In this document: positions 3,297 through 19,618 of the stretch, piece by piece
Layout of the letters: each line of letters starts with the position of its first letter
Position numbering within the stretch: the first letter of the stretch is position 1
Source of the DNA: Gemmobacter lutimaris
GTDB taxonomy: Bacteria; Pseudomonadota; Alphaproteobacteria; Rhodobacterales; Rhodobacteraceae
Direction: 5' to 3'
Assembly: GCF_003570715.1 (NCBI RefSeq)
Contig: NZ_QXXQ01000016.1
Coordinates: 1-64,000, forward strand
Length of the DNA stretch: 64,000 bases
The notes under the pieces: model-generated
Told to the model about the DNA's origin: nothing
Databases searched by the model: none
The model's input: the letters and a program-made list of their open reading frames with translations, nothing else
Position numbers and translations under genes: made by a program

Positions 3297-3309
3297 CGGC
3301 TATCTCCCG

Positions 3310-3375
3310 CGACGGGCGCCGGGAGCCACTCTCCCAACCTTCAACCCATCACCGGGAAACCGGCACTCCTCTCAC
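3310..3375 (-). promoter_or_regulatory. Shared structured leader, copy A (before DUF932 gene)
   Basis: Reading the minus strand toward the start at 3296: a box GTGAGAG (3369-3375), 33 nt, then a 26-nt element (3310-3335), then 13 nt containing the ribosome binding site GGGAG. The 26-nt element is identical to the one at 19490-19515. Inside it GGGAG-N5-CTCCC can form a hairpin, while the same CTCCC can instead pair with the GGGAG ribosome binding site. This is an observation of sequence; regulation is inferred. Confidence 0.6.
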
Positions 3376-3535
3376 TCTTTGGGGCGAAAACGGTCGGAGA
3401 GCGGTCCTTCGCACCTAGAATACGTAGGCGTTCAAAAGTATCTTCGCCCAGCGTCGGTGGGTCCAACTCGCTGTGGGCCCGAACCGCCGAACGGCTGTAG
3501 GGCGGCATAGCAGTGTCAACGACTTCGGCCGCGGG

Positions 3536-4366
3536 CTATGGATTGTCTGCGAGGGGATAGCCCCATGCGCCTTCCCATCCACAGGCTTTCGCTGCGCAGA
3601 ATGCAGCATATTGGAGAACCTGTTCTGGAGTATCTCCGCGAAATCTCGCCACAAGGTAGCCAGCGATGAAGGCATCGCCTGCGCCCATAGTGTCGACCAC
3701 CGTGGCGGGCACAATTGGCTGTTCGATGCGGGTCTGACCATTGGCCCAGATTGCCCCCTTGTCTCCGCGCGTCACGCAAACGGTGTCCGGTCCAAGGTCG
3801 AGGACCCGCGCGATCAGCTCTGACACTGCCACGTCGGCCAGCCCTGCTCCTGACAGAAAAGCCGTCGAGACATGCGGGCAAACCTGCGCCAGATAGGCCG
3901 GGTCGTGCAGAGTGGAGAAGTCGAACGACACCCCGCGCGCGGCGGCACGGATGCGGGGCAGTTCCGGTTCCAGATAGCTGAAGCAGCTGGAATGGACATG
4001 GCCCGTGGCGGCGATCAGCGCGAGGTCATCCTCGTCCATCCTGAGCATCAGCTTGCGCCGGATGCCGCCCCGGTTTGACGCGACGAAGACCCGGTCTCCG
4101 TCGGCAGCATGGGTGACCTGCGCCTTGCCATTAGGCCCTTCTACCCGGCGCAGATGGGCGATCGATAGGCCTTCGGCAGCCATGCAGGTGCGGACGTGAT
4201 CGCCTTCACGGTCATTCCCGACGATGCCCATATAGACCACATCGGCAAGCCCGAAACGGCGGGCCAGAACGGCCACGTTCAACGCGTTGCCGCCGGGGAA
4301 GAACACTCCCCGGTCAAGGTAAAGGTCAACGACATTGTCGCCGATGCAGAGAAGTCCGTTTGTCAT
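3536..4366 (-). CDS. frlD: PfkB-family sugar kinase, fructoselysine 6-kinase-like
   Basis: A 276-residue ribokinase/PfkB kinase. The substrate-binding glycine motif PGGNALNVAVLARRFG lies near residues 25-40 and the ATP/catalytic signature DTMGAGDAFIAGY near 225-237, with the catalytic Asp about residue 231. The C-terminal CGWEGAWGYP resembles FrlD of E. coli, which phosphorylates fructoselysine at C6. The ATG at 4366 is chosen over the longer frame (to 4435), which would overlap the upstream gene. It is the last gene of the operon, 50 bp after an frlB-like gene, so kinase and deglycase form a natural pair. Exact substrate (fructosyl- or glucosyl-amino acid) is inferred. Confidence 0.75.
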   Translation of the reverse strand: MTNGLLCIGDNVVDLYLDRGVFFPGGNALNVAVLARRFGLADVVYMGIVGNDREGDHVRTCMAAEGLSIAHLRRVEGPNGKAQVTHAADGDRVFVASNRGGIRRKLMLRMDEDDLALIAATGHVHSSCFSYLEPELPRIRAAARGVSFDFSTLHDPAYLAQVCPHVSTAFLSGAGLADVAVSELIARVLDLGPDTVCVTRGDKGAIWANGQTRIEQPIVPATVVDTMGAGDAFIAGYLVARFRGDTPEQVLQYAAFCAAKACGWEGAWGYPLADNP

Positions 4367-4416
4367 GCTGGCCTCGCCGGAATGGGGGGCAGGACTGGCC
4401 CGCCCCCGACCTTGGG

Positions 4417-5406
4417 TCAATACTCCATCTTCCACATGTAGCGCCGCACCGTCAGCGGGTGGCCGCGACTATCGGCCAGCTTGTCGCAATAGACCCGCAG
4501 CAGGGTGCCGAAAGCCATGTGTTCGACATGTTCCACCACTTCGGCGTCAAGAACCCCAAGGCCCAGTTCCTCGGCGCACAGGGTGGTGACGCGCTGGCTG
4601 TATTTCGTTACGAAGGCAAGGCCCCGGTCATCGATCTTGCGGCTTGCACCAAGGCCGCGCAGCACGATGAAGGGCACGTCGAAATCGGTGATCTCGAAGG
4701 GTCCGTGGAAGTATTCGCCCGCATGGATACCGGCGGAGTGTATCCACTGCATCTCTTGGAAGATGCAGATCGCGTAGGAATAGGCCGTGGCATAGTTGGC
4801 ACCGGCACCCATCGTGTAGATGACCGGCTCGCGTTTCATGGCTTCGGCGAAGGTGGCGATGCGGTCAGTATGGGCGGCGATGGCGGTGTCGATTAGAGCC
4901 GGAAGGGCGGTCAACGCCTTCTCTACCTTCTGCGCGAGAGGGTTGCCTTCGCGCACGCCCATGATGCCGAAGGTCAGCCGGGCCATGACGGCGGCGGAAT
5001 GGTCGAGCGCGAAAGTCTTGGGCGCGTGGGTGTAGTAGACCGGGAACTCCACCGCCTGATCCAGCGGACTGCCGGGCAGGTTGGTCAGCGCGATGGTCAG
5101 TGCGCCCTTCGAGCGGGCAAAGCGGGCGGCCTCGACCGTTTCCGGCGTGGTGCCGGAGTGCGAACACAGGATCACAGCCGAGCTGGGCCCCAACCGTGCC
5201 GGGTTGCGGGCCAGGAATTCGGCTGCGTTTAGCGCGTGGCCGGCGATGGTTTTCGCATGGCGGTCTACGGCATACTGGTTCGGCAGCATCAGCGCATAGG
5301 ATCCGCCACAGGCGACGAAGTAGATTTCGGTCAGCTCAGGCCGCGCCTTCGCGGCGGCAAGCGCGGCGGCGATCTGCGCCTCGGTCGGGAATGGTTTATC
5401 GGTCAT
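4417..5406 (-). CDS. frlB: SIS-domain protein, fructosamine-6-phosphate deglycase-like
   Basis: A 329-residue double SIS protein. The sugar-phosphate loop VACGGS (residues 31-36) and HSGTT (83-87) are intact, and HAGEYFHGPFEI at about 228-239 matches the region that holds the acid/base residues of FrlB and FraB. FrlB-type enzymes split the 6-phosphates of Amadori products into glucose 6-phosphate and a free amino acid. The C-terminus RRYMWKMEY is FrlB-like. It lies between two PfkB kinases in the operon. GlmS-type isomerase activity is unlikely because there is no glutaminase domain. Enzyme class is well supported; the exact substrate is inferred. Confidence 0.8.
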   Translation of the reverse strand: MTDKPFPTEAQIAAALAAAKARPELTEIYFVACGGSYALMLPNQYAVDRHAKTIAGHALNAAEFLARNPARLGPSSAVILCSHSGTTPETVEAARFARSKGALTIALTNLPGSPLDQAVEFPVYYTHAPKTFALDHSAAVMARLTFGIMGVREGNPLAQKVEKALTALPALIDTAIAAHTDRIATFAEAMKREPVIYTMGAGANYATAYSYAICIFQEMQWIHSAGIHAGEYFHGPFEITDFDVPFIVLRGLGASRKIDDRGLAFVTKYSQRVTTLCAEELGLGVLDAEVVEHVEHMAFGTLLRVYCDKLADSRGHPLTVRRYMWKMEY

Positions 5407-5486
5407 CTGGTCCTCTCGTCAGGCAAGGTTGGGCCGGTCCCGGAAACGGCGTTCCGGGAGGCGGCAGGTTGGCAATGGGTCAGGCA

Positions 5487-6293
5487 CTACTGGGGAAAGC
5501 CCCCCGGATGGCCGCAGCAGGCGGCAGCGCAGGTGTGGCCCGCTGCCATGGCCATGGGCACATCGGCCCCCTTCAGCCGCGCGGCCAGAAAGCCCGCGAT
5601 GTAGGCGTCGCCCGCGCCGGTGGTGTCGACTGGGGTAATCGCCGGGGCCATGGCGCGGAAGGTCTGACTGCCGATCAGGGCTAGACTGCCCTTCGCGCCC
5701 AGCGTGATGACGGCCCCCTTCGCGCCTTGTGCCACCAGATCTGCCGCGCGCGCTTCGGCCCGGTCGGCCTGCACTTCAGGCAGCGAGGCGAAGGCGATGG
5801 CCAGGCCTTCGACGCCCAGATCTTCGGGGGCCGCGTTCACGGACACATCCTGCGACAGGCTGACCCCGTCGCGCGCCAGAACACGGCGCGCATGGCCGCC
5901 ATCCTGCAACCAGCCGATATGGACATGCCGGGCCGCAGACAGCGCGCTGAGGCGAGAGCCGTCCGGCCCCCAGCTCGCACAGGCGCCGAAATCCTCGGTC
6001 AAGATGGTGCGATTGCCGTCAGGGGCCACGTTCAGATGCGTGACCGAGGTTGCGGGTCCCAGTCTTTCGATCAGCGAGACATCGACACCCTTTTCTGCCA
6101 GTGCCGCCAGAACCCGGTCGCCATCTGCCTCCCCGGCTGGCCCAACGGCCCCGCAATAGGCCGCGCTCAGGCCCAGCATCGCCACCTGCACCGCCACGTT
6201 GACCGCATTGCCGCCGACAAGGTCAGCCGTGACCGCGCCGGTCAGCCGGTCGATGCAGTTGTCGCCAAGGGCTATCAGGTCGAAAGCAATCAT
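5487..6293 (-). CDS. Second PfkB-family sugar kinase
   Basis: A 268-residue PfkB kinase with VGGNAVNVA (about 26-34) and the C-terminal VDTTGAGDAYIAGF, catalytic Asp about residue 229. It shares general design with the downstream kinase but has a different C-terminus (CGHPGGFPQ), so the two are diverged paralogues and not a recent duplication. Its ATG overlaps the stop of the FAD oxidoreductase (ATGA), showing tight coupling. In the operon it would phosphorylate either a second fructosamine or a product of the oxidase. No direct evidence for its substrate. Confidence 0.8.
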   Translation of the reverse strand: MIAFDLIALGDNCIDRLTGAVTADLVGGNAVNVAVQVAMLGLSAAYCGAVGPAGEADGDRVLAALAEKGVDVSLIERLGPATSVTHLNVAPDGNRTILTEDFGACASWGPDGSRLSALSAARHVHIGWLQDGGHARRVLARDGVSLSQDVSVNAAPEDLGVEGLAIAFASLPEVQADRAEARAADLVAQGAKGAVITLGAKGSLALIGSQTFRAMAPAITPVDTTGAGDAYIAGFLAARLKGADVPMAMAAGHTCAAACCGHPGGFPQ

Positions 6294-7585
6294 CCGATGG
6301 TTGCTCCGCGCGATGCCATGTTGTCCTTCAGATCATGCAAGGCAAGGACAGGACGGCGATACCATGTCTGGCCGTGGAAGAAGGGGCGCGTCTCCAGCTC
6401 CAGCCCGTCCAGTGCGGTCTCGCCGCCCCTACCCAGCATCTTTTGCGCCAGCTTCATCCCGAGGTAGGACGACATGGCGACGCCGGTGCCGTTGTAACCG
6501 ATGGCATAGCCCATGCGCCCATGCAGGCCCACATGCGGCAGATGGCTGAAGGTGGCCCCGACAAACCCGGTCCAGACATGGGCGATCTTCACGCCCTCCA
6601 GCTGTGGGAAGAGCCGCAGGATGTTGCGGCGCACGCGCGGCAGGCAGGCGGCAACGTTGGTCACGTTCACCGGAACCACGGTGCCGATCACCACCCGGTC
6701 GCCATCGGGCGAGGGCCGGTGATAGGTCACATTCATCCGCGTGTCATAGACCATCGAAGCGCGCGGATACATCGCCCGCACCGCGGCCGGGTCCATCGCT
6801 TCGGTCGCTGTCACCACCGAGGCCAGTGACACCACCCGCCGCCGCATCCACTTTGACGCGCCGTCGGTATAGCCGTCGGTCGCCATTACCAGATGTGCAG
6901 CGCGCACGGTGCGGTCGGCCGCAAGGCAGGTGATGTGATCGACCCTATCCTCGATCCGCGACACGCGGGTCAATGGCGCAAAGCGCACGCCCGCGGCAAG
7001 GCACAGCCGCACCAGCTCGGCCACCAGCCGCCCGGGGTGCAGGCTGGCCCAGTCGGCCAGATGCACTCCGCCGTGAAATTGCGGCGAGGCGACGAAGTCG
7101 GACACCCGGCCTTTCTGGACTTCCTCACCCTCGACCCCCAGCCTTGCATTCTGGCGCAGGAAGTGGCGCAGGCCCTCCATCCGGTCGGGCCGGTGCGCGC
7201 CGATGAAATGGCCGCAGACGCTGTAGTTGCAGGCGATGCCCTCTTCGGCGATGAAGGACCGCAAGTGGCGATGCGCTTCGATCCCAGTCGACAGGATGGC
7301 CCGCGCGCGATCCTCACCGTATTTCGCGATGAAATCATCCAGGTCGGGCTTCATCTCGGACGACACCTGCCCGCCGTTGCGCGTGGAGCAGCCCCAGCCG
7401 ATCTCGCCCGCGTCGCAGACTACGACCTGCCGCCCGCCCCGCGCCAGATGCAGCGCGGTGTAGAGGCCGGTGAACCCTGACCCCACCACCAGCACATCCT
7501 CGCGCGGCTCGACCGTCGCGGCGGGGACCTGTGGCAAGGCCATCTCGGCCCGCCACAAGGGGGTGTCGCTGAACCCGGCGAACAT
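6290..7585 (-). CDS. FAD-dependent oxidoreductase (DAO family), amine/Amadori oxidase-like
   Basis: A 431-residue DadA/PuuB-type flavoprotein. The FAD-binding GSGFTG lies at 35-40 after the first beta strand, followed by GWGCSTRNGGQVS at about 63-75, a motif typical of the gamma-glutamylputrescine oxidase and N-methyl amino acid oxidase branch. The C-terminal part has GYAIGYNGTGVAMSSYLG. Such enzymes oxidise secondary amines, and bacterial fructosyl-amino acid oxidases belong to the same superfamily, so in this operon oxidative opening of a glycated amine is plausible. It follows the upstream SIS gene by 1 bp and overlaps the next kinase. Confidence 0.8.
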   Translation of the reverse strand: MFAGFSDTPLWRAEMALPQVPAATVEPREDVLVVGSGFTGLYTALHLARGGRQVVVCDAGEIGWGCSTRNGGQVSSEMKPDLDDFIAKYGEDRARAILSTGIEAHRHLRSFIAEEGIACNYSVCGHFIGAHRPDRMEGLRHFLRQNARLGVEGEEVQKGRVSDFVASPQFHGGVHLADWASLHPGRLVAELVRLCLAAGVRFAPLTRVSRIEDRVDHITCLAADRTVRAAHLVMATDGYTDGASKWMRRRVVSLASVVTATEAMDPAAVRAMYPRASMVYDTRMNVTYHRPSPDGDRVVIGTVVPVNVTNVAACLPRVRRNILRLFPQLEGVKIAHVWTGFVGATFSHLPHVGLHGRMGYAIGYNGTGVAMSSYLGMKLAQKMLGRGGETALDGLELETRPFFHGQTWYRRPVLALHDLKDNMASRGATIG

Positions 7586-7586
7586 C

Positions 7587-8600
7587 TCAGTAGGCCACGC
7601 GCTTGTAGTAGCGCCGCGTCACAAGCGGGTGATTGCGCATCACCTCAAGATGCGCCGAAAGCCGCTCCAGCACGGTTGCCAGAAGCGCCGGGGCCAACAT
7701 CGCCCGCAGATCGGACGACAGGCCGGTGGTCGCAAGATCGCGGGTATCCAGCACGGTCAGCTTGTCGGTGTAGCCCTTGGCAAAGGCGATCACGCGGTCG
7801 GTCAGCGGGCGGGTTTCATCCTCGCCTGCAAAGACCACGACCGAGACGCCCTTCTCCACCAGTTCCAGCGTGCCGTGGAAGAAGTCCGAGGCATGGACCG
7901 GTCGGGTGCGGATCCACTGCATCTCTTCGAGGATGCACATGCCGTAGTAATAGGCCTCGGGCCAGGCCGCGCCGGACCCGGTCAGGATGTGCCAGCCATC
8001 ACCGGCAATCGCCTGCGCCAGCACATCGGCGCGCGGCTCGAACGCCTGTTTCACCGCCAGAAGCTGCTGCGGAAGACCCGCAAGCTCGGCGATGATCCGA
8101 TCGTAGTCAGACCGCTCGCCCCGCGCCCGCATCGCCGCGAGCGCCGCCACCAGCGACGTGACGTAAAACATCTCGCACGAGGTGTCATCCTCGGCAAAGT
8201 TGACAAAGCTGTGGTCGGCCCCCTTGGCCAGCGGCGTCTCGGCATGGCCGGTGATCGAGATCACGGTGGCCCCGCGCGCCTTCACATAGTCCATCGCCGC
8301 GATGCTTTCCTTCGTGGTGCCCGACAGCGACGGCATGATGACTACCGACTTCGGTCCCAGCGCCACATGCCCAGTCAGCACGATCTCGGCGCAAAGGACG
8401 TTGTGGCAGGGCAGGTTCGAGGCCCGGCGCATCAGATCGGTCGCGGGCTGCATCAGGATACCCGCCCCGCCCGACCCCATGAAGAAGAGGCTGTCGGCCC
8501 CCTCGACCACCAGACGCCCGACCAGCGTGCCAAGGTCACGGGCGATGGTCACGGTTCCGGTCTGGATGCGCAGGAAGCGGGCAGGATCGAAGTTCAGCAT
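7587..8600 (-). CDS. Second SIS-domain protein, FrlB-like paralogue
   Basis: A 337-residue SIS protein with MGSGGAG (41-47), SLSGTTKES (91-99) and HASDFFHGTLE (about 236-246). The last motif aligns with HAGEYFHGPFE of the other SIS protein but has Asp-Phe where the other has Glu-Tyr, a possible shift in the acid/base pair. The C-terminus RRYYKRVAY keeps the family pattern. It is the first catabolic gene after the transporter genes. Two SIS/PfkB pairs in one operon suggest two related substrates or two phosphorylated intermediates; this is inference. Confidence 0.75.
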   Translation of the reverse strand: MLNFDPARFLRIQTGTVTIARDLGTLVGRLVVEGADSLFFMGSGGAGILMQPATDLMRRASNLPCHNVLCAEIVLTGHVALGPKSVVIMPSLSGTTKESIAAMDYVKARGATVISITGHAETPLAKGADHSFVNFAEDDTSCEMFYVTSLVAALAAMRARGERSDYDRIIAELAGLPQQLLAVKQAFEPRADVLAQAIAGDGWHILTGSGAAWPEAYYYGMCILEEMQWIRTRPVHASDFFHGTLELVEKGVSVVVFAGEDETRPLTDRVIAFAKGYTDKLTVLDTRDLATTGLSSDLRAMLAPALLATVLERLSAHLEVMRNHPLVTRRYYKRVAY

Positions 8601-8631
8601 GGTCTTTCCTTTCGTAAACCAATGAGGCGGA

Positions 8632-9708
8632 TCAGAGCCGAAGGCCGCTGTCGCCGGAAAAGAGATGCGCGCGGCCCGGCTGGGGCTGTACGGTCAGGCC
8701 GCCGTCCGCGGCAAAGTCATGCTCGCCATCAAGCTGCACGGTTACGGGCTGGCCATCGGCAAGGCGGCCATAGGCGTAGGTCATGCCGCCCAGCCGCTCA
8801 CTGGCCTGCACCTCCACCGACGCACCGGGTCCGGCGACAAGGTGCTCGGGCCGGATGCCCAGCGTGACCTCGGCGCCGACGGCGGGCAAATGATCCACGG
8901 CCACGTCGCAGACTAGTCCGGCGGCATCGACGCGGGCCGTCCCGGACTCGGTCGCCGTGACCCGCGCCTTCAGGAGGTTCATTTTCGGGCTGCCGATAAA
9001 GCCCGCAACGAAGGTGTTGGCCGGGTGGCGGTAGATCTCCAGCGGCGCGCCGATCTGCTCCACCAGCCCGTCGCGCAGCACGACGATCTTGTCGGCCAAC
9101 GTCATCGCTTCGATCTGGTCATGGGTGACGTAGACCATGGTCGCCTGCAACTCGCGGTGGAGCTGCGCCAGTTCGATCCGCATTTGCAGGCGAAGCGAGG
9201 CATCGAGGTTCGACAATGGCTCGTCGAACAGAAAGACCTTTGGGTTGCGCACGATGGCCCGGCCAATGGCAACACGCTGGCGCTGGCCGCCGGACAGTTC
9301 CTTGGGCAGCCGCTTCATCAGGGGCCCCAGTTGCAGGATCTCCGCCGCCCGGGCGATCTTGCGCGCAGCCTCGTCTTTCGGCGTTTTGGCCACCTTCAAC
9401 GCGAAACCCATGTTCTGTTCCACGGTCTTGTGCGGGTAAAGCGCATAGGACTGGAACACCATCGCGATGCCCCGGTCGGCCGGGCGCACGTCGTTCATGC
9501 GCTGCCCGTCGATCAGCAGTTCGCCCCGGCTGATGCTTTCCAGCCCCGCGATCATCCGCAGCAAGGTGGACTTGCCGCAGCCCGACGGGCCGACGATCAC
9601 GACGAATTCGCGCTCGGCAATGTCGATGTCGATGCCGCGCACGGCCTCATAGGTTCCGTATTGCTTGGCGATCGCCTTGATCTGCATATAGGCCATGGGG
9701 GCACTCAT
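8632..9708 (-). CDS. Sugar ABC transporter ATPase (MalK/UgpC type)
   Basis: A 358-residue ABC ATPase. Walker [10 protein letters not shown] at 40-48, signature LSGGQ at 138-142 and Walker B VFLFDEP at 158-164 are intact. The C-terminal TOBE/MalK regulatory domain follows (TLGIRPEHL). The ATG at 9708 overlaps the upstream permease stop; alternative inner starts exist at MAYMQIK. It energises the importer formed by the next three genes upstream. UgpC/MalK ATPases are often shared between importers, but here the linkage is direct. Confidence 0.9.
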
Positions 9709-10544
9709 TTGACGGCGCCGCTGGTCAGGCCGCCAACGAACTGGCGCTGCATGATCAGGAAGGTCGCAAGGATGGGAAGGATCGACAGGGCCAGCCCGGC
9801 CATCAGCACGCCCCAGTCGGCGCGCAGGGCGACGGCAAAGCTCATCACGCCGATGGTCACGGTTTTGACGGTTTCGCTTTCCACGAAGGTCAGGGCAAAG
9901 ATGAACTCGTTCCAGACCCGCATCGCCGAGATCAGGCCGGCCGATGCCAGGATCGGGCGGCAGAGCGGCAGGTAGACCTCGCGGAAGATACGCGCCTCGC
10001 CCGCGCCGTCCATCAGGGCGGCCTCGCGCAGCTCGCCCGGAATGCCGGTCATGTAGGCGCGGATCAGGAAGGTGGTGAAGGGCAGCCCGAAAGCCACGTT
10101 CGGCAGTATCAGCGCGAAGTAAGTGTTGTAGAGACCGGTCTCGGCCATGACGCGGAACAGCGGGATCAGGCTGACCTCGGGTGGCAGGATCGCGCCGCCA
10201 AGGATCAGGGTATAGATCGCCGCCTTAGCGCGGAAGTTCAGCACCACTAGGGCATAGGCGGCCATGGTCGCCAGGGTAAGTTCGATCAGGACAGTGGCGG
10301 TCGTCACGATCAGCGAGTTCAGCAGGTAACGCGAGATGCCATAGTTCCAGGCGGTCGAGAAGTTTTCCCAATGCCAGACCTTTGGCAGGCCCCAGGTGGC
10401 GGCGAACATGTCGTTCGTGGTCTTGAAGGCGTTCAGGAACAGCCAGATCATCGGGTAGACGCAGATCACCGCCAGCGTCAGGAACACGGCCCACAACAGG
10501 ATGCGGTTTGCAACTGCAAGGGCGGTAAGGGAACGCGCGGTCAT
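9705..10544 (-). CDS. Carbohydrate ABC transporter permease (MalG type)
   Basis: A 279-residue inner-membrane permease with six predicted membrane segments and the EAA loop ([20 protein letters not shown]) that docks the ATPase. Family CUT1 permeases of this size pair with a MalF-type partner, found directly upstream with 1 bp between the genes. It imports the substrate delivered by the binding protein encoded at the head of the operon. Confidence 0.9.
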
Positions 10545-10545
10545 C

Positions 10546-11448
10546 CTAGCGATCCTTCTGCAGCTTGATCTGCATCAGACCGATGGTCAGCGCGATGAAG
10601 AAGATTACCGTGGCGATCGTGGACGAATATCCGATCATGTCGTCGCGGAACGCGGCGCGATACATCAGGGTGCCCAGCACCTCGGACGAATGGTTCGGTC
10701 CGCCCGCCGTCATCACCCAGACGATGTCGAACACCTTGAGCGAGCCGAGGATGGTGATGATGGTGACGATCAGGATCGTCTCGCGCACGCCGGGCACGGT
10801 GATATGCCAGAACTGCTGGATGCCCGAGGCGCCGTCGATTTCCATCGCCTCATACAGGTCGCGCGGCACGGCGCGGATGGCGACCATGAACAGCGCCATG
10901 ATGTATCCCGTCCACTGCCACTGGCTGACGAAGATCACCGCGAAAATGGCGGTATCCGGCTCTCCCAGCCAGGCTTTCGACCAGGACGACAGGCCGGTTT
11001 CCCACAGGAGCTGGTCGATCAGGCCGGTGGTCGGCGTCATGAGCAGTTGCCAGACCAGCCCCACAACAACCACCGGCAGGATCGACGGCAGGAACAGCGC
11101 GGTGCGGAAAAGGTTGGCCGAGAGGTCGGGAAAAACCCTCGCCTCTAGCACGGCCGCCAGCGTCAGCGCGACACCCACCTGACAGGCAACCGAAATGACC
11201 GCATAGATGGCGTTATTGGTCAGTGCTGTGGTGAACTTCGGATCGTTCCACAGCCGCAGATAGTTGTCGAAGCCGACGAAATCCCAGTCCAGTGACATGG
11301 CCGAGAACGAGAACAGGCTGAAGCGGATGTTCGTCAGCGCCGGCCCGTAGACGAAGACCACCAGGAACAGCAGCGCCGGGGCGACCCAGAGCCAGCCCTG
11401 CAAGCTTTGTCGCCACGTCGCGCGGGTATGATCGGACCTGTCGGTCAT
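10546..11448 (-). CDS. Carbohydrate ABC transporter permease (MalF/UgpA type)
   Basis: A 300-residue CUT1 permease with an N-terminal membrane segment (LQGWLWVAPALLFLVVFVYG) and the EAA loop DLYEAMEIDGASGIQQFWHI. It is separated from the binding-protein gene by 77 bp that contain a strong hairpin (11481-11506), a common way to give the binding protein higher expression than the membrane parts. Confidence 0.9.
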   Translation of the reverse strand: MTDRSDHTRATWRQSLQGWLWVAPALLFLVVFVYGPALTNIRFSLFSFSAMSLDWDFVGFDNYLRLWNDPKFTTALTNNAIYAVISVACQVGVALTLAAVLEARVFPDLSANLFRTALFLPSILPVVVVGLVWQLLMTPTTGLIDQLLWETGLSSWSKAWLGEPDTAIFAVIFVSQWQWTGYIMALFMVAIRAVPRDLYEAMEIDGASGIQQFWHITVPGVRETILIVTIITILGSLKVFDIVWVMTAGGPNHSSEVLGTLMYRAAFRDDMIGYSSTIATVIFFIALTIGLMQIKLQKDR

Positions 11449-11506: not shown

Positions 11507-11525
11507 GTTGGTCCAGCGGGGGAGC

Positions 11526-12800: not shown

Positions 12801-12828
12801 CGAACTCTCCCTTGTTGGTTGGCCGAAC

Positions 12829-13071
12829 TATACCAATTTGCCCGGCTTGGTTAGCATTGGTATATTGGTATCCATACCAAGCGGACCAAAGCAACGGTTT
12901 TCTTTCTTGAATCTGCGATTTTTAATGCTGCACAGCGGCATAGCAGCGCTGCAATCGGCTTTTCAGTTGCTTCTTTCGTGTTGTTGGTATAGGCATTGGG
13001 ACTGATGGCCCCTGCTACTTCTGGAAAATCGGGGCGATTTCAACGCGTGTCCTGCTGTCGGTGTATACCAA
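12829..13071. promoter_or_regulatory. Operator array between ABC operon and GntR gene
   Basis: The 271-bp divergent region carries repeated half-sites TTGGTATA/TATACCAA at 12829-12836, 12857-12864, 12984-12991 and 13064-13071, plus a perfect 7-2-7 palindrome TTGGTATCCATACCAA at 12865-12880. The last half-site touches the ATG of the regulator gene. GntR/UTRA regulators usually bind short palindromes with T(A/G)TA centres, so this is a likely autoregulated divergent control region. Confidence 0.75.
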
Positions 13072-13872
13072 ATGCCCATCCCATCTTTCATCAGTCAGGA
13101 TCATCGCCCCGGGTCGGCCCTGGCCCGGGTGCATCTGCTCTTGCGCAATCTCATGCTGGAAACCGGCATGTCGCATGGCGACCGCATTCCGTCAGAACGT
13201 GAACTGGCAGAGCGATTCGGGATTTCGCGCATGACCGTGCGCAAGGCTCTGAACCAGCTTGTTGACGCGGGACATCTGGAACGACGGGGCACAGCGGGCA
13301 CGTTCCTGCCCGAACCCGCCGTCGTGAGGCCCTTGTCCAAGCGGGTATCGACCGCGATTTCGGAAGTGGTGGGACAGGCCGGTCACAAACCCGGCGCGCG
13401 CCTTCTGTTCTTTGAACAGGCGCAGGCCGATGCCAATATCGCGCGGCGGCTGCATCTGGAAGAAGGCGCCCCGGTCATCGTGATCAAACGTCTTCGCTTG
13501 TCGGACGCGGTGCCCTTCTGCGTCGAAACCAGCTACCTGCCGCACCACCGAGTTCCCGGACTGGTCGCCGCCGATGTATTCGCCGCGCCATCGCTTTACG
13601 CCCTTTTGCGCGAACGCTTCGGCATGACCTTCGCAACATCGGACTTCCATGTCAGCGTGGACATCGCCCCGGACACTGAAGCCGACCTGCTTGGCCTTGC
13701 CCCGGGGGCAGGTGCGCTGGCTATGCGCTCAACGGTCTATGATCGTGACGGAAGACCGGCCGAGTTCCTGATTTCGTGGAACCATCCTGACCGCGTCGCT
13801 TTCGAATCCCTGCGCGACGACACGGGCCCAGTGAAAAGCGTGTTCACCGACTGGGCAAGTCCAAGGCCATGA
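13072..13872 (+). CDS. GntR-family regulator with UTRA domain (FrlR-like)
   Basis: A 266-residue regulator. The N-terminal winged helix (IPSERELAERFGISRMTVRKALNQL, about residues 43-66) is followed by a UTRA ligand domain from about residue 95 (VIKRLRLSDAVPFCVETSYLP). UTRA domains bind sugar phosphates or amino-sugar-like effectors, and FrlR of E. coli belongs here. It is divergent from the fructosamine operon with a TTGGTATA operator array between them. No good ribosome binding site precedes the ATG, which lies directly after a TATACCAA half-site, so a leaderless or short-leader mRNA is possible. Confidence 0.9.
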   Translation: MPIPSFISQDHRPGSALARVHLLLRNLMLETGMSHGDRIPSERELAERFGISRMTVRKALNQLVDAGHLERRGTAGTFLPEPAVVRPLSKRVSTAISEVVGQAGHKPGARLLFFEQAQADANIARRLHLEEGAPVIVIKRLRLSDAVPFCVETSYLPHHRVPGLVAADVFAAPSLYALLRERFGMTFATSDFHVSVDIAPDTEADLLGLAPGAGALAMRSTVYDRDGRPAEFLISWNHPDRVAFESLRDDTGPVKSVFTDWASPRP

Positions 13873-13917
13873 AGGCGCAATCGGGGACGTCCGCTTCGGG
13901 CCGACATCGACGGAACC

Positions 13918-13935
13918 CGGCGGGTTTCCCCGCCG
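13918..13935 (-). terminator. Hairpin after ssb
   Basis: On the minus strand CGGCGGGG-AA-ACCCGCCG forms a strong stem downstream of the ssb stop (13963). There is no clear T-run. A hairpin of the same composition follows the large ParB-like gene (17252-17271). The gntR gene ends nearby from the other side. Confidence 0.5.
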
Positions 13936-13962
13936 AGCCCTTTCGGAGAGACCCAGTTCCTT

Positions 13963-14367
13963 TCAGAACGGGATCTCATCGTCGCGGTCGACCAACTCGG
14001 GGTTTTCATTCTCGGTCGCCTTCGGGCGGCTGAGGAAATCAACCTTCTCAGCGATGATCTCACAGCCGTAGCGGTCGGTGCCGGTTGCGTCGGTCCACTT
14101 GGTGTAGTGGATGCGGCCGTGGACCAGGACCTTCATGCCCTTTTCGCAGTGCTCTGCCACAGTCTTGCCGAGACCGTTGAAGCAGGTGATGCGGTGCCAT
14201 TCGGTGTCCATGACCCGGTAGCCGTTTTCGTCGCGGATCGCGCGACCTTCCGAAAGGCGGGGGCGCGAGGTGGCGAGGGTGAAGTTGGTGATCTTGGTGC
14301 CGCTCTGGGTGGCGCGGACTTCGGGCTTCTGACCGATGTTGCCGGCGAGGATGACGATGTTCTGCAT
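13963..14367 (-). CDS. ssb: Single-stranded DNA-binding protein
   Basis: A 134-residue plasmid SSB. The OB fold covers about residues 1-105 (MQNIVILAGNIGQKPEVRAT, then WHRITCFNGLGKTVAEHCEKG and VHGRIHYTKW), and the acidic tail ends DDEIPF, the tip that recruits partner proteins. The ATG at 14367 is preceded by AGGAG. The linker is short compared with chromosomal SSB. Plasmid SSBs support replication or conjugation. The longer upstream frame is not used because it lacks family similarity. Confidence 0.9.
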   Translation of the reverse strand: MQNIVILAGNIGQKPEVRATQSGTKITNFTLATSRPRLSEGRAIRDENGYRVMDTEWHRITCFNGLGKTVAEHCEKGMKVLVHGRIHYTKWTDATGTDRYGCEIIAEKVDFLSRPKATENENPELVDRDDEIPF

Positions 14368-14796
14368 GTTAAGCTCCTGTGTTTCCTGTCCTTGGGACCG
14401 TCCCTTCGACAAGACCCGAAAGAAGCCTGTCGGGTGAGGCGTGCACGGCTGGGCCATCAGAACAGACGGAAACCCCCAAAGGTCCGGGGTGGAGCGGGCA
14501 GGACGCAAACGGCGGCCAACACGGCTCGGACTGACGCGGGGTTGCACGATTGAACCCGAACAGGCTTAGGGGATTGTCAGTCGAAGGGATGGCGCCGAGG
14601 ACAGGAGAGATTGGGGGCTCTTGCAGAACATGTCTTTCCTCGCCCTGCTAAGACGGCAAACCCAAAGTCCTTACCCCCATAGCGGCTGATCACCTCTGAG
14701 CCCCTTTGCTTGCCATTCGCGCCCCAGCCTGATCGGAGTTGCGAGCCCGCGCCGTGACGGCTATCCCGAGGGCATCATTTTGGACACGAGGCACCC
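14368..14796. other. 429-bp divergent intergenic region
   Basis: It lies between ssb (minus) and the H-NS-like gene (plus) and should hold both promoters. I see no gene, RNA or strong palindrome in it; CACGAGGCACCC just before the ATG at 14797 provides a weak ribosome binding site. Confidence 0.5.
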
Positions 14797-15117
14797 ATGG
14801 CTGAATTCAACATCGAGGCAATGTCACTCAAGGAGCTCAAAAGCCTGCAGAAGGATCTGGCCAAGGCCATTTCCAACTTTGAAGACCGGAAGAAAAGCGA
14901 TGCCCGCAGCAAGCTCGAGATCATTGCCAAAGAGATGGGCTATTCCCTTGCCGACCTGATTGGCGCCGAGGTGAAACCCAGCCGTGCGCCCGCCGCCGCG
15001 AAATACCGCCACCCAGAAAACGCGGCTCTCACTTGGTCAGGCCGGGGGCGCAAACCGCTGTGGTTTGTCGCAGCCCTAGAAGCAGGCAAATCGCCCGAGG
15101 ACATGGCAGTCAACTGA
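14797..15117 (+). CDS. H-NS-like nucleoid-associated protein
   Basis: A 106-residue H-NS family protein. The N-terminal half is a coiled coil (LKELKSLQKDLAKAISNFED), and the C-terminal DNA-binding domain is recognised by YRHPENAALTWSGRGRKPLW at about residues 70-89, where SGRGRKP is the AT-hook-like loop that enters the minor groove. Plasmid H-NS homologues (HvrA/Spb-like in Rhodobacterales) silence transferred AT-rich DNA and reduce the fitness cost of the plasmid. It lies alone between ssb and the small exported-protein gene. Confidence 0.85.
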   Translation: MAEFNIEAMSLKELKSLQKDLAKAISNFEDRKKSDARSKLEIIAKEMGYSLADLIGAEVKPSRAPAAAKYRHPENAALTWSGRGRKPLWFVAALEAGKSPEDMAVN

Positions 15118-15335
15118 CCGCCTGTGCGTGACCGAGCAGTAGGACGTTCGCGTTATAGAAATCCACTTTTGTGAGCACGTCGCCTCGGTCATGTTTACAG
15201 AGCGTAGTTCTCCCAAAATGAGAAAGCCCCCTGCCCTATCTGCTTCAGTTTCTTGCCACCGCCTTCTTTGGATTTCGGAATGCCGACAAGACGTCGGCGC
15301 AATGGGCCTGTCAGGCTCTTGGGGGCAGACAGGCG

Positions 15336-15370
15336 AAAAGCCCGGAGGCGCGTTCGCGCCGTGCCCGGGC
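15336..15370 (-). terminator. Rho-independent terminator of the small gene at 15391
   Basis: On the minus strand GCCCGG and CCGGGC enclose an inner GGCGCG/CGCGCC stem and are followed by TTTT. It begins about 20 bp after the TAA of the 54-residue frame, which supports that frame being a real transcribed gene. Confidence 0.7.
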
Positions 15371-15390
15371 CTTCTTAACGACCGTGGGCT

Positions 15391-15555
15391 TTACGCCCAC
15401 GGGTCGATCTCAACAAGCACCTGAACCTCGTCGCCGTCGATTTCATCGGCGGGGACGGCACCAAAGGTTCCATCCCCTGCCTGAAAGACGACGATCGAAA
15501 CCATGAGCGTGGCGGCGAGGGAGGCGGCGAAGGCGTGTGCATCTTTGCGGGACAT
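15391..15555 (-). CDS. 54-residue small membrane or exported protein
   Basis: A short frame beginning MSRKDAHAFAASLAATLMV and ending VEIDPWA. Residues 8-24 form one hydrophobic helix that can act as signal anchor or signal peptide, and the rest is strongly acidic (DEIDGDEVQV). AGGAG stands ten bases before the ATG and a good terminator follows the stop. I do not recognise a family. The combination of ribosome binding site, hydrophobic segment and terminator makes it more than a random frame, though no homologue is known to me. Confidence 0.5.
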   Translation of the reverse strand: MSRKDAHAFAASLAATLMVSIVVFQAGDGTFGAVPADEIDGDEVQVLVEIDPWA

Positions 15556-16005
15556 CTGTTTTGGCTCCTGCTGGGAGGCGAGGGACCATCCCCCGCGCTG
15601 ACAGGAACCCGCAGGCCCAAAGACGGTCTGACATCACCGGGTGCGTTCGGGCTTGCCCCGAATCCGGCCGGCGGCACGGGCTCGCCCCGTAGTCCGAGCC
15701 CTTGTGGCTTGATCTCGAAGACTGGATTTGGGCCAAGGAAGGGACTGGCAAGCGGGGGATGGTACTTTGACACAAGGAGCCGAATTGTCCCGCTGATGCT
15801 CACCCCGCCAGCCTTGCAGACATGCATTTGGTTGACTGAGGCATTACTGGGGATGGAGCCTTTGGTGCCCCGCGCAAATGCGAGGGACAGGTTGATGCTG
15901 GATGAGAGGCCCGCGTGCGGCGGGCCCCCTTGGTCAATGAGAAGGCTCAGGCGGCGATGTCCGCCTTCTGTGCCCTCTACCGTGCGTTTTGAAATTGAGA
16001 GTTGG
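15556..16005. other. 450-bp gene-free stretch with tandem hairpins
   Basis: Between the small gene and parE there is no credible coding frame. It contains two neighbouring hairpins, TTCGGG/CCCGAA (15646-15662) and GGGCTCG/CGAGCCC (15678-15701), and a GC-rich inverted repeat GGCCCGC/GCGGGCC at about 15919-15938 that could end the parDE transcript. A small RNA is possible but not shown. Confidence 0.4.
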
Positions 16006-16344
16006 CTATTCGCCGCTGTCGCCTTCGCCCAAGGCGGCAAGCCGAGCAGGCAGGTCCATCCTGACATGCAGGAAGTCAACGACGATCATCCGGTCTGGCG
16101 CGGCAATAAAGACCACATAATGCTGTCCGGACCGGGCATAACGCAGGTTCTCGGGCAGCGCAGGATCAACCAGTCGACGGCAGTCTTTGGAAGGTGCAGC
16201 ACCGTCCGCCAGTGCCTGGCACTTTTCGATGAGGTCTTCAGCGTAAGCGTCTGCCTGCCGCCGGCCAAAAGTCTCAACTGTCCAAACCGCGATATCTTTC
16301 AGTGCGGCCTCTGCTTGCCGCGTCAACACCCATGGTTTTGGCAT
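16006..16344 (-). CDS. parE: ParE/RelE-family toxin
   Basis: A 112-residue ParE-type toxin: TRQAEAALKDIAVWTVETFG at the start and RYARSGQHYVVFIAAPDRMIVVDFLHVRMD at the end are the family's conserved helix and strand. ParE toxins inhibit gyrase; RelE toxins cut mRNA on the ribosome; the ParD partner here favours ParE. It shares a base with the end of the antitoxin gene (16344), the usual coupled arrangement. It serves plasmid stabilisation. Confidence 0.88.
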   Translation of the reverse strand: MPKPWVLTRQAEAALKDIAVWTVETFGRRQADAYAEDLIEKCQALADGAAPSKDCRRLVDPALPENLRYARSGQHYVVFIAAPDRMIVVDFLHVRMDLPARLAALGEGDSGE

Positions 16345-16604
16345 CAGGATGCGGACTTTTGCGCCGTTGCAAAGACCCGCCGGATTGCTTCTTCACCCGA
16401 TCCACGCGCGAAAGCCCCCTCCCGGACTTCAAGCACGCCACGTGTCAGCCGTGAGCGCAGGTCACGGAACTCGGCCTCTTCGCGCTCCAGCAAGCGCAAA
16501 CCGGCCCGCAGCGCCTCGGAGGCGTTCTGGTAGCGACCCGAGGCAACCAGATCGTCGATCAGCCTTGACTGGGGTTCGGTCAGAACAACGTTGCGGGTGG
16601 CCAT
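16344..16604 (-). CDS. parD: ParD-family antitoxin
   Basis: An 86-residue ribbon-helix-helix antitoxin: MATRNVVLTEPQSRLIDDLV then SGRYQNASEALRAGLRLLE is the CopG/ParD DNA-binding part; the tail wraps the toxin. The ATG at 16604 is chosen because the longer frame upstream lacks similarity and would run through the operator. A perfect palindrome lies 18 bp before the start, fitting autoregulation. Confidence 0.88.
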   Translation of the reverse strand: MATRNVVLTEPQSRLIDDLVASGRYQNASEALRAGLRLLEREEAEFRDLRSRLTRGVLEVREGAFARGSGEEAIRRVFATAQKSAS

Positions 16605-16621
16605 GCCGTGATCTCCATTTG

Positions 16622-16640
16622 ATTGGCAATATATGCCAAT
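16622..16640. promoter_or_regulatory. ParD operator palindrome
   Basis: ATTGGCAATATATGCCAAT has perfect 7-bp arms around ATATA and lies immediately upstream of parD. CopG/ParD proteins bind such sites; role inferred from position. Confidence 0.7.
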
Positions 16641-16710
16641 GGCGCCTATCTGTCGAGAGAGGCTCGACCAAACCGCAAGACGGCAGTGGCCGAGCCAGAA
16701 ATTAATCCCC

Positions 16711-17184
16711 TCAGGCGGCGATAGCCGCCTCCCCTGCCCCATCGTCGTTTTCAGCTCCGACGATCTCGAACCGCGCGCTGCGATAGCCCTCCTTGGCAAT
16801 CCAAAGCTCCGCCGCATTGACCGATACCGCCAGATGCAGCAGCTCAGTGTTGCCACCGAAGTCCAGTAGCACGCGGACCTGCCCCACCTTGGGCTCCTCG
16901 ATGACTTCGAAGACCAACCGGCTATCCGCCGAGTGGCTGCGCATGATGGTCACGAGGATCACCCCGTCTGAGGAGAAGTTCCCCTCATGCAGCGTGAAGG
17001 AGGCCGGAGCCGTCCAGGTCGGATAAGGCCGCTGCGGCTCTTTCTTCACCAGGCGACCAACACCGTTGGACCTTTCCCAAGATGCCAGCTTTTTGGTGAA
17101 GCGTGCGGGCGGTTTGGGACTGCCATCAGTGTAGCGAATGAGCGCGCCCAAGGGAGCTTTGTCGATGATTGTGTTTGCGGACAT
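16711..17184 (-). CDS. Conserved-looking plasmid protein of unknown function
   Basis: A 157-residue protein starting MSANTIIDKAPLGALIRYTD. The N-terminal third is basic (SPKPPARFTKKLASWERSNG) and the rest is beta-rich (FTLHEGNFSSDGVILVTIMR, then VRVLLDFGG). No known domain is recognised. It lies between parD and the ParB-like gene on the same strand. Its upstream region carries a palindrome GAATGCGAGCATTC at 17201-17214 and an AT-rich stretch to 17245, probably its promoter. Confidence 0.6.
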   Translation of the reverse strand: MSANTIIDKAPLGALIRYTDGSPKPPARFTKKLASWERSNGVGRLVKKEPQRPYPTWTAPASFTLHEGNFSSDGVILVTIMRSHSADSRLVFEVIEEPKVGQVRVLLDFGGNTELLHLAVSVNAAELWIAKEGYRSARFEIVGAENDDGAGEAAIAA

Positions 17185-17200
17185 GATTCCTCATCCTGAA

Positions 17201-17214
17201 TGCGAGCATTCGCA
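17201..17214. promoter_or_regulatory. Short palindrome before the 157-residue gene
   Basis: GAATGC-GA-GCATTC is a perfect 6-2-6 palindrome 17 bp upstream of the ATG at 17184, followed by AT-rich DNA. It may be an operator. Confidence 0.4.
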
Positions 17215-17251
17215 CTCATCATATTGATATTGTTGTAATTTGTGGTGATTA

Positions 17252-17271
17252 AGGGCGGGTTTCCCCGCCCT
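17252..17271 (-). terminator. Terminator-like hairpin after the ParB-like gene
   Basis: AGGGCGGG and CCCGCCCT form a perfect 8-bp stem with a 4-nt loop, 13 bp past the stop of the ParB-like gene on the minus strand. The tail TTAATC is only weakly U-rich. Confidence 0.5.
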
Positions 17272-17283
17272 CGGAGGCTCAGA

Positions 17284-19476
17284 TCACTCAGCAGCCATCA
17301 TCGCGGTGCTTTCCACGGGCAAATCGGCCATCAGGAACGCGGGCAAGTCGATTTCCTCGCCGTTGTCCTGATCGCCCAAGACTTCTTCGCTCAAAGCCCC
17401 CTGCCCTTCTGCAGCGACATCACCGTCCAGAGCGGCAAGATCACTGCGCCGCAGAACCTCTGGCAACCAGCCGCTACCCTTGAGCAAGCGCTCGGCTTCC
17501 GTCGCCATCTCGCCCTTCTTCAGATGGTCGAGCAACTGCGCAGTGCCCTCCCCTTTCGCCTCACGAACGGCGTCGAGAATGCGCGCCTTGGGAACCCGTT
17601 TCAGGTAATTGTCCGCCGTCGGCTCCCAGCCAACAGCGACCATGTCGAGATCGACTGCTTGGGCCACGATCTCGGACTGCGCCATGCGCCGGGTCAACCC
17701 GCTGGCCGAGATGCCCGCACCGTAAGGGTTGACCTTCTCATGCAGCGCGTTGATCCCGAAGCTCAGGCAATGCGCCAGCAGAGCTAGACGGCTGGCCTGA
17801 TCGAGGGCCGAGAGATAATCCCAGAGCACGGCATCGTCGCCAAGCGGCAGATCGGCCTCCCAGGCAGCATGACGATCGTCCACGGCCTTGGCCACCGGAC
17901 TGTCCTTCAGATCGGGGGCCTGTGCCGACATGTACACGGTGCGCACAGAAGCCTCCAAGCAACTGCCCGTAGCCCCGGAACTGCGGAAGGTGTCATTGAC
18001 CAGCTTCATCAGCAGCAGCGTCAAGGCCACGTCGGGCGAACGCCCAATCGCCTCGCGCAAGGCGAGGGTGCGATGTGCGGTCAGCTCCATGACCAGACGC
18101 TCCGGCAAAGGCTTCAACGCACCATCATCCTCATCGTCTGGCAGACCGGCACTGAACGGTTCACCCCCGGAAGTGATGACGGTGGCCGCAGAAGTGCCAG
18201 CCGGAAGCTGATAGGCGGAAACAATGCCATCAGCCCCCTGCCCTTCCGCATCCAGATCATCGCCAAAGTTGGCCACGGTCTCTTCGCGAGGCTCATCCTC
18301 CGGCCGGACATAGCCGCGATGGGCAGCCAGGTTGCCATCCCGATCCAACGTCACGAAGACGCCTGCGCGGACAACTTCGGTTACATCGAAGATCAGCGGG
18401 CGCTGCTCCAAGGCTTCCATCGCACCTTCCAGCTCGCCAAGCCGCGTGTCGATCTCTTCAGGGTATTCGTCCTGGCCAGAGTATTCCTCTTCAAGCGTGC
18501 GATACTCCGCAAGCAGCTTGGCATGCTCTGCAGCTTCATCCGCGCTGAGCGGCGATGGATCGCCAACCAGACGCCGCAGACCGTGGCTATAGCCATAGGG
18601 CAGATCAGTTGACACCTCGATCCACTTCCAACCTTCCGCGGCGATTGCCTGCGCCTCGACTCGCAGCTTGTCCGCGACCAAACGGTCAAGCAGGGCAGGG
18701 TCATCCAACCAGCCGCCATCATCGCCTTGGAAGAGGTCGCGCAGGACAACGCCACCCGCCGCCTCATAGACGTCAACACCGACAAACACCGCGCGCCGGT
18801 CCGAGGCCCGCACAGAGGTTTCCGTGAGCATGCGCCGGATCGAATAGGGCTCCTTGTTCCAGGAGTTCTTCACCGCATCCCAGATCTGCGCCTGACGCTC
18901 GTGATCGGGGTTCACTGTGAAGGCCATGAGCTGTTCCAGCGTCATGCCATCCTCAGCATAGACCTCGAGCAGGGCAGGGGCCACGGACGCGAGTTTCAAC
19001 CGCTGCTTCACGATCTGCGGGGTGACAAAGAAGGCCGCAGCGATCGCCTCCTCGCCCTGACCCTTCTCCCGCAAGGCAGCAAAGGCACGGAACTGATCGA
19101 GCGGATGCAAGGCAACGCGCTGCATGTTCTCAGCCAAGGAGTCGTCCTCGGCCAGAATATCTGATGTCACATCACGCAACACACAAGGCACAGGCGCGGT
19201 CTTCGCGAGCCGTTTCTGCTTCACCAGCAGCGACAGCGCCTGAAAGCGTCGACCGCCAGCCGGGATCTCGAATTTGCCGGTCTCGACGCCATCTGCATCC
19301 AGCACTGGCCGCACGCTCAGGCCTTGCAACAGGCCACGGCGGGCGATGTCCTCGGCCAACTCTTCAACTGACACACCGGCCTTGATGCGCCGGACGTTGG
19401 ACTGGCTCAGCACCAGCTTGTCAAAGGGGATGTCCCGCGAGGACGACAGGGTAATCTTCTGGGCAGCTTGGGCCAT
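17284..19476 (-). CDS. Large ParB N-terminal domain protein (plasmid ParB-like)
   Basis: A 730-residue protein. Residues 1-130 form a ParB/Srx nuclease-like domain (LSQSNVRRIKAGVSVEELAEDIARRGLLQ, then IPAGGRRFQALSLL and SLAENMQRVALHPLDQFRAF), followed by an HTH region (VTPQIVKQRLKLASVAPALL) and a long C-terminal part that is not ParB-like. This size class is common on alphaproteobacterial plasmids and is distinct from repB. The ATG at 19476 has GGAG before it; the longer frame (to 19548) runs through the leader element. It may act in DNA binding, silencing or as a CTP-dependent clamp; function is unproven. GGGCAGGG octamers occur inside it in both orientations. Confidence 0.85.
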   Translation of the reverse strand: MAQAAQKITLSSSRDIPFDKLVLSQSNVRRIKAGVSVEELAEDIARRGLLQGLSVRPVLDADGVETGKFEIPAGGRRFQALSLLVKQKRLAKTAPVPCVLRDVTSDILAEDDSLAENMQRVALHPLDQFRAFAALREKGQGEEAIAAAFFVTPQIVKQRLKLASVAPALLEVYAEDGMTLEQLMAFTVNPDHERQAQIWDAVKNSWNKEPYSIRRMLTETSVRASDRRAVFVGVDVYEAAGGVVLRDLFQGDDGGWLDDPALLDRLVADKLRVEAQAIAAEGWKWIEVSTDLPYGYSHGLRRLVGDPSPLSADEAAEHAKLLAEYRTLEEEYSGQDEYPEEIDTRLGELEGAMEALEQRPLIFDVTEVVRAGVFVTLDRDGNLAAHRGYVRPEDEPREETVANFGDDLDAEGQGADGIVSAYQLPAGTSAATVITSGGEPFSAGLPDDEDDGALKPLPERLVMELTAHRTLALREAIGRSPDVALTLLLMKLVNDTFRSSGATGSCLEASVRTVYMSAQAPDLKDSPVAKAVDDRHAAWEADLPLGDDAVLWDYLSALDQASRLALLAHCLSFGINALHEKVNPYGAGISASGLTRRMAQSEIVAQAVDLDMVAVGWEPTADNYLKRVPKARILDAVREAKGEGTAQLLDHLKKGEMATEAERLLKGSGWLPEVLRRSDLAALDGDVAAEGQGALSEEVLGDQDNGEEIDLPAFLMADLPVESTAMMAAE

Positions 19477-19489
19477 CAGGTCTTCTCCA

Positions 19490-19556
19490 CGACGGGCGCC
19501 GGGAGCCACTCTCCCGATCTCACTTCCCGCCACCCTCAAACCAACCATTCTCTCAC
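19490..19556 (-). promoter_or_regulatory. Shared structured leader, copy B (before ParB-like gene)
   Basis: The same layout as at 3310-3375: GTGAGAG (19550-19556), 34 nt, the 26-nt element (19490-19515), then exactly 13 nt with GGAG before the ATG at 19476. The 26 nt are identical in both copies while the flanking DNA differs, which argues for selected function. Confidence 0.6.
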
Positions 19557-19618
19557 TTTCGTACTGGACATGGGTGCGAACGAGAGCCCGGCAGGGCGGC
19601 GCGTTTCATTTGGATAAT

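Follow-up and report, generated by a model that had tools for sequence, protein, structure and literature searches.

Why should two unlinked plasmid genes, one DUF932-like and the other coding for a large ParB-like protein, carry the same 26 nucleotides (nt) at the same distance from their start codons? The question is raised by positions 1-64,000 (forward strand) of contig NZ_QXXQ01000016.1 from Gemmobacter lutimaris (assembly GCF_003570715.1); this whole analysed stretch of 64,000 nt, part of a contig of 87 kilobases, is called the window below. On its minus strand the 26-mer GGGAGAGTGGCTCCCGGCGCCCGTCG stands at 3310-3335 and again at 19490-19515, in both places with 13 nt between it and the ATG (39 nt counted from its first base) and with a GTGAGAG box 33 and 34 nt upstream, as an earlier note on this DNA had described. 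The 26-nt identity is the 3' half of a leader of about 90 nt, and comparison of related copies points to a structured 5' leader of messenger RNA (mRNA), about 85-90 nt long. Our best reading, to which as a whole we give somewhat better than even chances, is translational control by a fold that would cover the Shine-Dalgarno (SD) sequence, reused before at least five gene families and probably read by a trans-acting factor, hinting at common on/off control of genes with a possible part in establishing plasmids in new cells.

Is the identity simply the trace of a recent duplication? The flanks differ, and their ungapped identity (30% over 100 nt upstream, 35% over 100 nt from the ATG on) is low enough to rule this out for the two window copies. 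Gapped alignment scores are above those of shuffled sequence, both for the upstream flanks (-5.0 vs -14.2, standard deviation 4.9) and for 300 nt downstream (0.0 vs -15.6, standard deviation 6.5), an excess that we read as the common box plus the similar composition of coding DNA. At up to three mismatches the 26-mer has these two sites only within the window, and two matches were reached in 0 of 100 shuffles. A 23-nt core (up to two mismatches) matches five times in the genome, every time 39 nt from an ATG, ahead of three DUF932-like genes, one ParB-like gene and one unrelated gene of 187 amino acids (aa). A covariance model, R1, finds 10 leader copies in the whole genome, three of them in the window. 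Looking for more copies on the replicon, as the earlier note had proposed, thus turned up a third window copy at 1418-1505 (minus strand); this copy, the seven on contigs C7, C13 and C14, and the helix P1 described below had all been overlooked. RepC, RepB and ParA-type proteins are encoded at 19619-23200, and the ParB-like gene and its leader come after repC.

R1 matched 125 and 82 times, in 87 and 60 sources respectively (E-value, E, at most 0.001), which makes 186 distinct contexts once identical ones were removed; of these, 171 had a readable start and 60 nt or more upstream (the other 15 were dropped), and thinning left 150. A first alignment, A1, held 19 copies (seven from this genome, one from one relative, 11 from six named plasmids). 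The order from 5' to 3' is: the AGAGNNAGAG box; 17-20 nt; (UUUCC)GUGACGGG; a short linker; the hairpin P2; GCCCGTC; GCGGAG as the SD; and the ATG. The P2 consensus is GGGAG-AGAGG-CTCCC with two further pairs, and P1 joins GACGGG to CCCGTC, its outer part (UUUCC/GGAGA) including the SD. Inner P1 and P2 were drawn by RNAalifold without guidance from the 19 copies; outer P1, which joins columns 32-36 to 84-88, is a manual addition from single folds that was afterwards counted in A1. P1 lies 13, 14 or 15 nt from the start codon in 140 of the 186 contexts (32 were not measurable by rule, 14 had other values). In the window the parts and their genes are:

3294..3378, minus strand: leader copy 1, running from the AGAGTGAGAG box to the ATG of the DUF932-like gene (R1 match 3294-3385, 91.1 bits)
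3369..3378, minus strand: box AGAGTGAGAG of copy 1 (sequence and alignment)
3353..3359, minus strand: TTTCCCG strand of copy 1, predicted partner of the SD region 3303-3309 (fold of 3297-3372; leader-only fold 0.88)
3345..3350, minus strand: P1 5' strand of copy 1, GATGGG (sequence, RNAalifold)
3321..3335, minus strand: P2 hairpin of copy 1, GGGAG-AGTGG-CTCCC (sequence, RNAalifold, covariation)
3311..3316, minus strand: P1 3' strand of copy 1, CCCGTC (sequence, RNAalifold, covariation)
3304..3308, minus strand: SD of copy 1, GGGAG (sequence)
2097..3296, minus strand: DUF932-like gene, 399 aa (PF06067 at 19.8 bits, under the cut-off of 23)
19474..19559, minus strand: leader copy 2, from the box AAAGTGAGAG to the ATG, before the large ParB-like gene (R1 match 19474-19566, 76.5 bits)
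19526..19531, minus strand: P1 5' strand of copy 2, GGCGGG, the SD-pairing stretch not retained (sequence, alignment, fold)
19501..19515, minus strand: P2 sequence of copy 2, assigned by homology, the minimum-energy fold pairing it differently (alignment, fold)
19491..19496, minus strand: P1 3' strand of copy 2, CCCGTC (sequence, alignment)
19485..19488, minus strand: SD of copy 2, GGAG (sequence)
17284..19476, minus strand: ParB-like gene, 730 aa from the ATG after the leader (PF02195 at 29.3 bits, cut-off 26.3, on the longer open reading frame (ORF) 17284-19548)
1418..1505, minus strand: leader copy 3 (R1 match 52.8 bits; SD predicted paired, 0.99)
791..1420, minus strand: gene behind copy 3, 209 aa, in a cluster of 15 proteins of 114-209 aa (clustering)

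Do the copies vary as a fold of this kind would require? In A1, made by MAFFT without structure, 90.3% of cells are paired (43-51% in slid registers), and both-sided changes occur in 10 of 20 pairs, a count as high in 0 of 500 shuffles. A 150-sequence MAFFT alignment, also made without structure (restricted to columns filled in half or more of the rows, pairs at least four columns apart), places its top four covarying column pairs (80-98, 83-95, 85-93 and 72-101) on P2 or P1; 10 of the 45 listed pairs fall on P1/P2 (the others are 62-111, which belongs to the SD helix, 65-108, 68-105, 71-102, 81-97 and 84-94), and 35 do not. A2, an alignment of 124 distinct rows fitted to the covariance model and thus biased toward the modelled structure, shows both-sided changes in all 20 modelled pairs (184 cells vs 46.2 in shuffles, 0 of 500 as high). 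Compensatory changes above controls, the mark of a cis-acting structured RNA leader, are therefore present; they extend to the GGGAG/CTCCC helix in P2, where the earlier note had suggested seeking them, in structure-free and model-fitted alignments alike, and the 3' strand of P2 varies to CTCGC or CTTCC in step with its own partner. That note had also named what would speak against the element (two copies only, no covariation, similarity spreading evenly into the flanks), and none of these is what was found.

Mismatches help to tell the strand. The helices hold 461 G-U against 63 A-C oppositions, a ratio of 7.3 (0.89-2.58 in eight slid registers); shuffling columns gives 508 and 144, the observed A-C thus being depleted more than two-fold and G-U hardly. 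As G-U is tolerated but A-C is not, the strand that folds appears to be the sense strand, which points to folding on the mRNA-sense strand, most simply as RNA. The comparison supports a nested P1/P2 fold on this strand, accompanied by a highly conserved box, AGAGNNAGAG, by AGAGG as the apical loop and, in most copies, by a spacing of 13-15 nt from P1 to the start.

How far would such a fold cover the SD? The 150 leaders were folded whole, from the box to 12 nt of coding sequence, and again as leader alone. With coding sequence the mean probability that the SD is paired is 0.81, and 132 of 150 leaders exceed 0.5 (133 when folded without coding sequence); for pairing of the SD with the outer P1 strand the mean is 0.77 and the count 128 (0.80 and 130 without coding sequence). 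The P1 core exceeds 0.5 in 135 of 150 and P2 in 124 (140 and 129 for the leader alone). The predicted SD partner is a pyrimidine stretch 5' of P1, except in the ParB copy of the window, where outer P1 is not the partner. In these models outer P1 pairs with the SD in most copies, so the folded leader should hold translation down. The earlier note had imagined a different switch: an alternative fold in which the SD is bound by the CTCCC of P2. These stretches do complement each other in both of the copies it knew, but pairing between them has a mean probability below 0.001 and a maximum of 0.01 (0.14 for the leader alone), exceeds 0.5 in 0 of 150 leaders, and is further opposed by the joint variation of CTCCC with its own P2 partner; we give this switch next to no chance. 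Of that note's proposal of a shared target, a structured leader common to several plasmid genes stands, and the CTCCC-SD pairing falls away.

Which genes lie behind the leader? The 172 downstream proteins comprise 78 ParB-like, 40 DUF932-like and 32 ArdC proteins, clusters of 15 (114-209 aa) and four (52-128 aa), and three single ones; family names come from one representative per cluster (that for DUF932 scores under the cut-off), and no Pfam family exceeded its cut-off for the tested members of the two small clusters. DUF932-like genes in this bacterial family have the leader at 20 of the 23 loci whose match reaches the gene start, and the three exceptions (L325, L337, L341) all come from one genome. 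The tie to the leader is strong for DUF932-like genes of this bacterial family and partial for ArdC. Plasmids of Mesorhizobium and Novosphingobium each carry leaders before both ArdC and ParB-like genes. For the gene product behind window copy 3, a 172-aa relative on C7 matched no Pfam family; the C-terminal end of the window protein (209 aa, 791-1420, minus strand) is unlike that of this relative, as if the frame had changed.

At the same E threshold, genome draws from the family, the class and the phylum had R1 matches in 44 of 198, 28 of 385 and 34 of 398 genomes, respectively, some genomes belonging to more than one draw. Every genome with a match is in the class (Alphaproteobacteria), the 364 phylum genomes without one being counted regardless of class. 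Scanned with a pattern, 84,980 species genomes yielded at least 120 stretches; those listed are, by organism name, alphaproteobacteria of several orders, a few labelled "Proteobacteria" or "bacterium", and one metagenome-assembled genome (MAG) labelled Gammaproteobacteria. Run on the listed 120 stretches (some of whose contigs recur from the genome draws) and four viral-contig stretches, R1 gave 198 rows with E no higher than 0.05, of which 196 fall under 0.001. The MAG contig (L271) holds two leaders, of 74.0 and 58.6 bits, and may be mis-binned. Of 72,556 plasmid records, BLAST matched copy 1 in 163 (E at most 0.01) and copy 2 in 193 (E at most 1); 84 and 89 of the matched records, respectively, are typed conjugative, with Pseudosulfitobacter accounting for 72 in each. 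One of the records matching copy 2 is NC_009958.1, a plasmid of Dinoroseobacter shibae DFL 12 (88.6% over 80%). The leader thus precedes five or more gene families and occurs on alphaproteobacterial plasmids as well as on large, possibly chromosomal contigs, and the search proposed in the earlier note has returned many matches before DUF932-like and ParB-like genes. A weak match (22.9 bits) at L100:2684-2767, before a 163-aa ORF, is possibly a further divergent leader.

As the earlier note had supposed, no named RNA family covers the leader: Rfam 15 gave no window match at the gathering cut-off, and a search of 3250-3500 at E up to 5 gave one chance-like match, Pab91 (14.3 bits vs 71, E 4.5, plus strand). 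No description of it was recognised in the literature searched, in which three surveys of bacterial RNA motifs were covered by term search. It represents a new RNA family in which a familiar type of device is put to unusual use, ahead of unrelated plasmid genes.

What might such a leader do? The SD helix and the start-codon spacing place control at translation, and the conserved unpaired purines suggest a bound factor. In the model that we favour, the folded leader would cover the SD and keep translation low; a trans-acting factor would read the purine box and loop and so set the balance between folded and open forms; and anti-restriction and other establishment proteins would thereby be made together, for example just after entry into a naive cell without a plasmid-borne repressor. 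Coordination of establishment-type genes is, by analogy, the most likely role. ArdC acts in the recipient: for R388, PMC7213743 reports that its expression is needed there and not in the donor.

Several observations weigh against this model. SD occlusion is a thermodynamic prediction at 37 °C, and the window copies are uneven examples of it. Copy 2 lacks the SD-pairing stretch and its minimum-energy fold, by which it was judged after being thinned out of the 150-leader set, is not the consensus; its sister on C7 has P1 at 0.19-0.25 and SD-P1 pairing of at most 0.01; and copy 1, folded with 12 nt of coding sequence, has P1 and P2 at only 0.08 (0.99 and 1.00 for the leader alone). Copy 3 folds as expected. 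By these predictions, one of the two copies from which the question arose is a poor example of its own family. ArdC genes have the leader at 7 of 30 loci of the class draw, hence it is not obligatory there; ArdC has no match at E 1e-10 in the genome of the window, and the type IV coupling-protein matches of this genome fall on C14 and C19 rather than on the contig of the window, so that "establishment" is argued from relatives. Finally, some bases upstream of the box are retained in ArdC and small-cluster leaders; on the supporting side, almost no column there is conserved in ParB (70) and DUF932 (30) leaders.

Could the leader instead act constitutively, stabilising mRNA or offering ribosomes a standby site in its AGAG stretches, without any switch? 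The purine-rich box and loop, retained in nearly all of the 150 copies, would suit this, as would the 22 of 150 copies in which SD-outer P1 pairing is 0.5 or less, but a helix over the SD, with both-sided changes in each of its outer six pairs, would hinder plain enhancement, and we consider this unlikely. An RNA thermometer or metabolite riboswitch, in which the leader senses the signal itself with no trans-acting factor, would account for an SD occluded by a helix rich in G-U pairs. SD-occluding RNA leaders such as the ROSE thermometers likewise place a helix over the SD; here, however, two purine elements are conserved and the leader precedes several unrelated plasmid genes. There is no Rfam match beyond the chance-like one for copy 1, the conserved unpaired part is a short purine repeat, and no metabolite common to the genes is evident, which makes self-sensing improbable.

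A single-strand DNA element like Frpo/ssi, whose hairpin in the transferred strand would serve as promoter or priming site, is also improbable, and to a like degree. Such hairpins precede plasmid leading-region and anti-defence genes elsewhere, and leading-region genes are read from the transferred strand (PMC11541004); some of the present leader genes are of establishment type (ArdC), the 110 nt upstream show no excess of a sigma-70-like signal (best scores average 6.71, vs 6.72 shuffled, n=150), and G-T wobble could occur in sense-strand single-stranded DNA. On the other hand, the complementary (template) strand would hold A-C mismatches where the sense strand has G-U, the leader includes the SD and ends near a fixed distance from the start codon, and no -35/-10 was seen in the hairpin by eye; Frpo/ssi differs in having promoter hexamers within a single-strand DNA hairpin, where the present leader has RNA-type sense-strand pairing that takes in the SD. 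Nor was a fixed-distance promoter seen in the aligned upstream regions, where a sigma-70 consensus may not fit these bacteria.

The closest layout is perhaps that of EGeRS1 on the Bacillus plasmid pLS20, which, in the sections of PMC8708921 available to us, marks a proposed establishment regulon: a conserved structured sequence directly before the ribosome-binding site of ardC and four other operons of one plasmid, with no constitutive promoter found for the ardC copy. EGeRS1 is 420-751 bp long, against about 90 nt here, and its authors report there no evidence for single-stranded DNA or RNA involvement; the likeness is one of layout, and in layout alone the Mesorhizobium (L015) and Novosphingobium (L017) plasmids, each with leaders before ArdC and ParB-like genes, resemble it. 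HRC-8-4 and uORFC-8-2 are likewise structured RNA candidates from Rhodobacterales but sit at cco operons and cysS, not at plasmid establishment genes (PMC8632094).

Another kind of leader emerged from weak R1 matches, which led to strawberry-notch-type helicase genes (named from annotated relatives). A box-and-start rule finds a leader of about 100 nt in 31 of 36 such loci, most of which were fetched for their P1/P2-type leaders, so that the counts are no measure of frequency. It shares the AGAGNNAGAG box and has, besides a GCCGGGACGGG strand and a GAGAGAG stretch, in most cases GCTCTCC ahead of the SD. In the remaining five loci a leader is visible by eye in L160, L197 and L245, L279 has the 3' part only, and L178 none. 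This genome has a copy at C13:4659-4750 (L007) and another lies at L014:29092-29177; the rule search found none in the window, and covariation was not established in 29 poorly aligned sequences. A tentative and rather doubtful extension of the model would make both architectures, P1/P2 and the longer strawberry-notch hairpin, parts of one RNA-level establishment regulon on alphaproteobacterial mobile plasmids: a single plasmid- or host-encoded RNA-binding factor would read the GAGAG motifs in box and apical loop and free translation of anti-restriction and other proteins only in a new host, a post-transcriptional zygotic induction.

The leader offers a sequence handle on a set of alphaproteobacterial plasmid genes: genes behind it, small families without a Pfam name included, become candidate establishment or counter-defence genes, and how they would be held off in the donor and on in the recipient becomes a testable question. 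It would also add an RNA family absent from Rfam 15.

A few smaller features of the leaders deserve mention. A candidate third hairpin, P0, presenting the box, exceeds shuffled controls in the leaders of ParB (0 of 500) and of the 172-aa cluster (3 of 500) but not in those of DUF932 (310 of 500) or ArdC (190 of 500), and was therefore dropped as a core part. A leader peptide was set aside as well: short frames such as GTG ACG GGT TGA are present, by eye, in some leaders and not in others. No T-run marking an intrinsic terminator or attenuator was seen by eye past P1 or P2. At 3288-3320 (minus strand), CGCCCGTCG of P1 could pair with CGATGGGCG around the DUF932 start codon, competing with P1 in the prediction with coding sequence. 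A hairpin, CTGCGGGGAGA-CCCCGCA-ACGCCCC, recurs ahead of the box in many ArdC and some DUF932 leaders (e.g., L017, L019, L055), and a stretch like the 3' end of a transfer RNA gene, perhaps a mobile-element integration site, lies by eye upstream of the DUF932 leader in L036.

Elsewhere in the window, 37167-38607 and 60370-61810 hold two copies of a 453-aa ORF that has no Pfam match; their DNA is 97.6% identical and their outer ends match (ACAGAACATG / CATGTTCTGT), and the unit looks like an insertion sequence.

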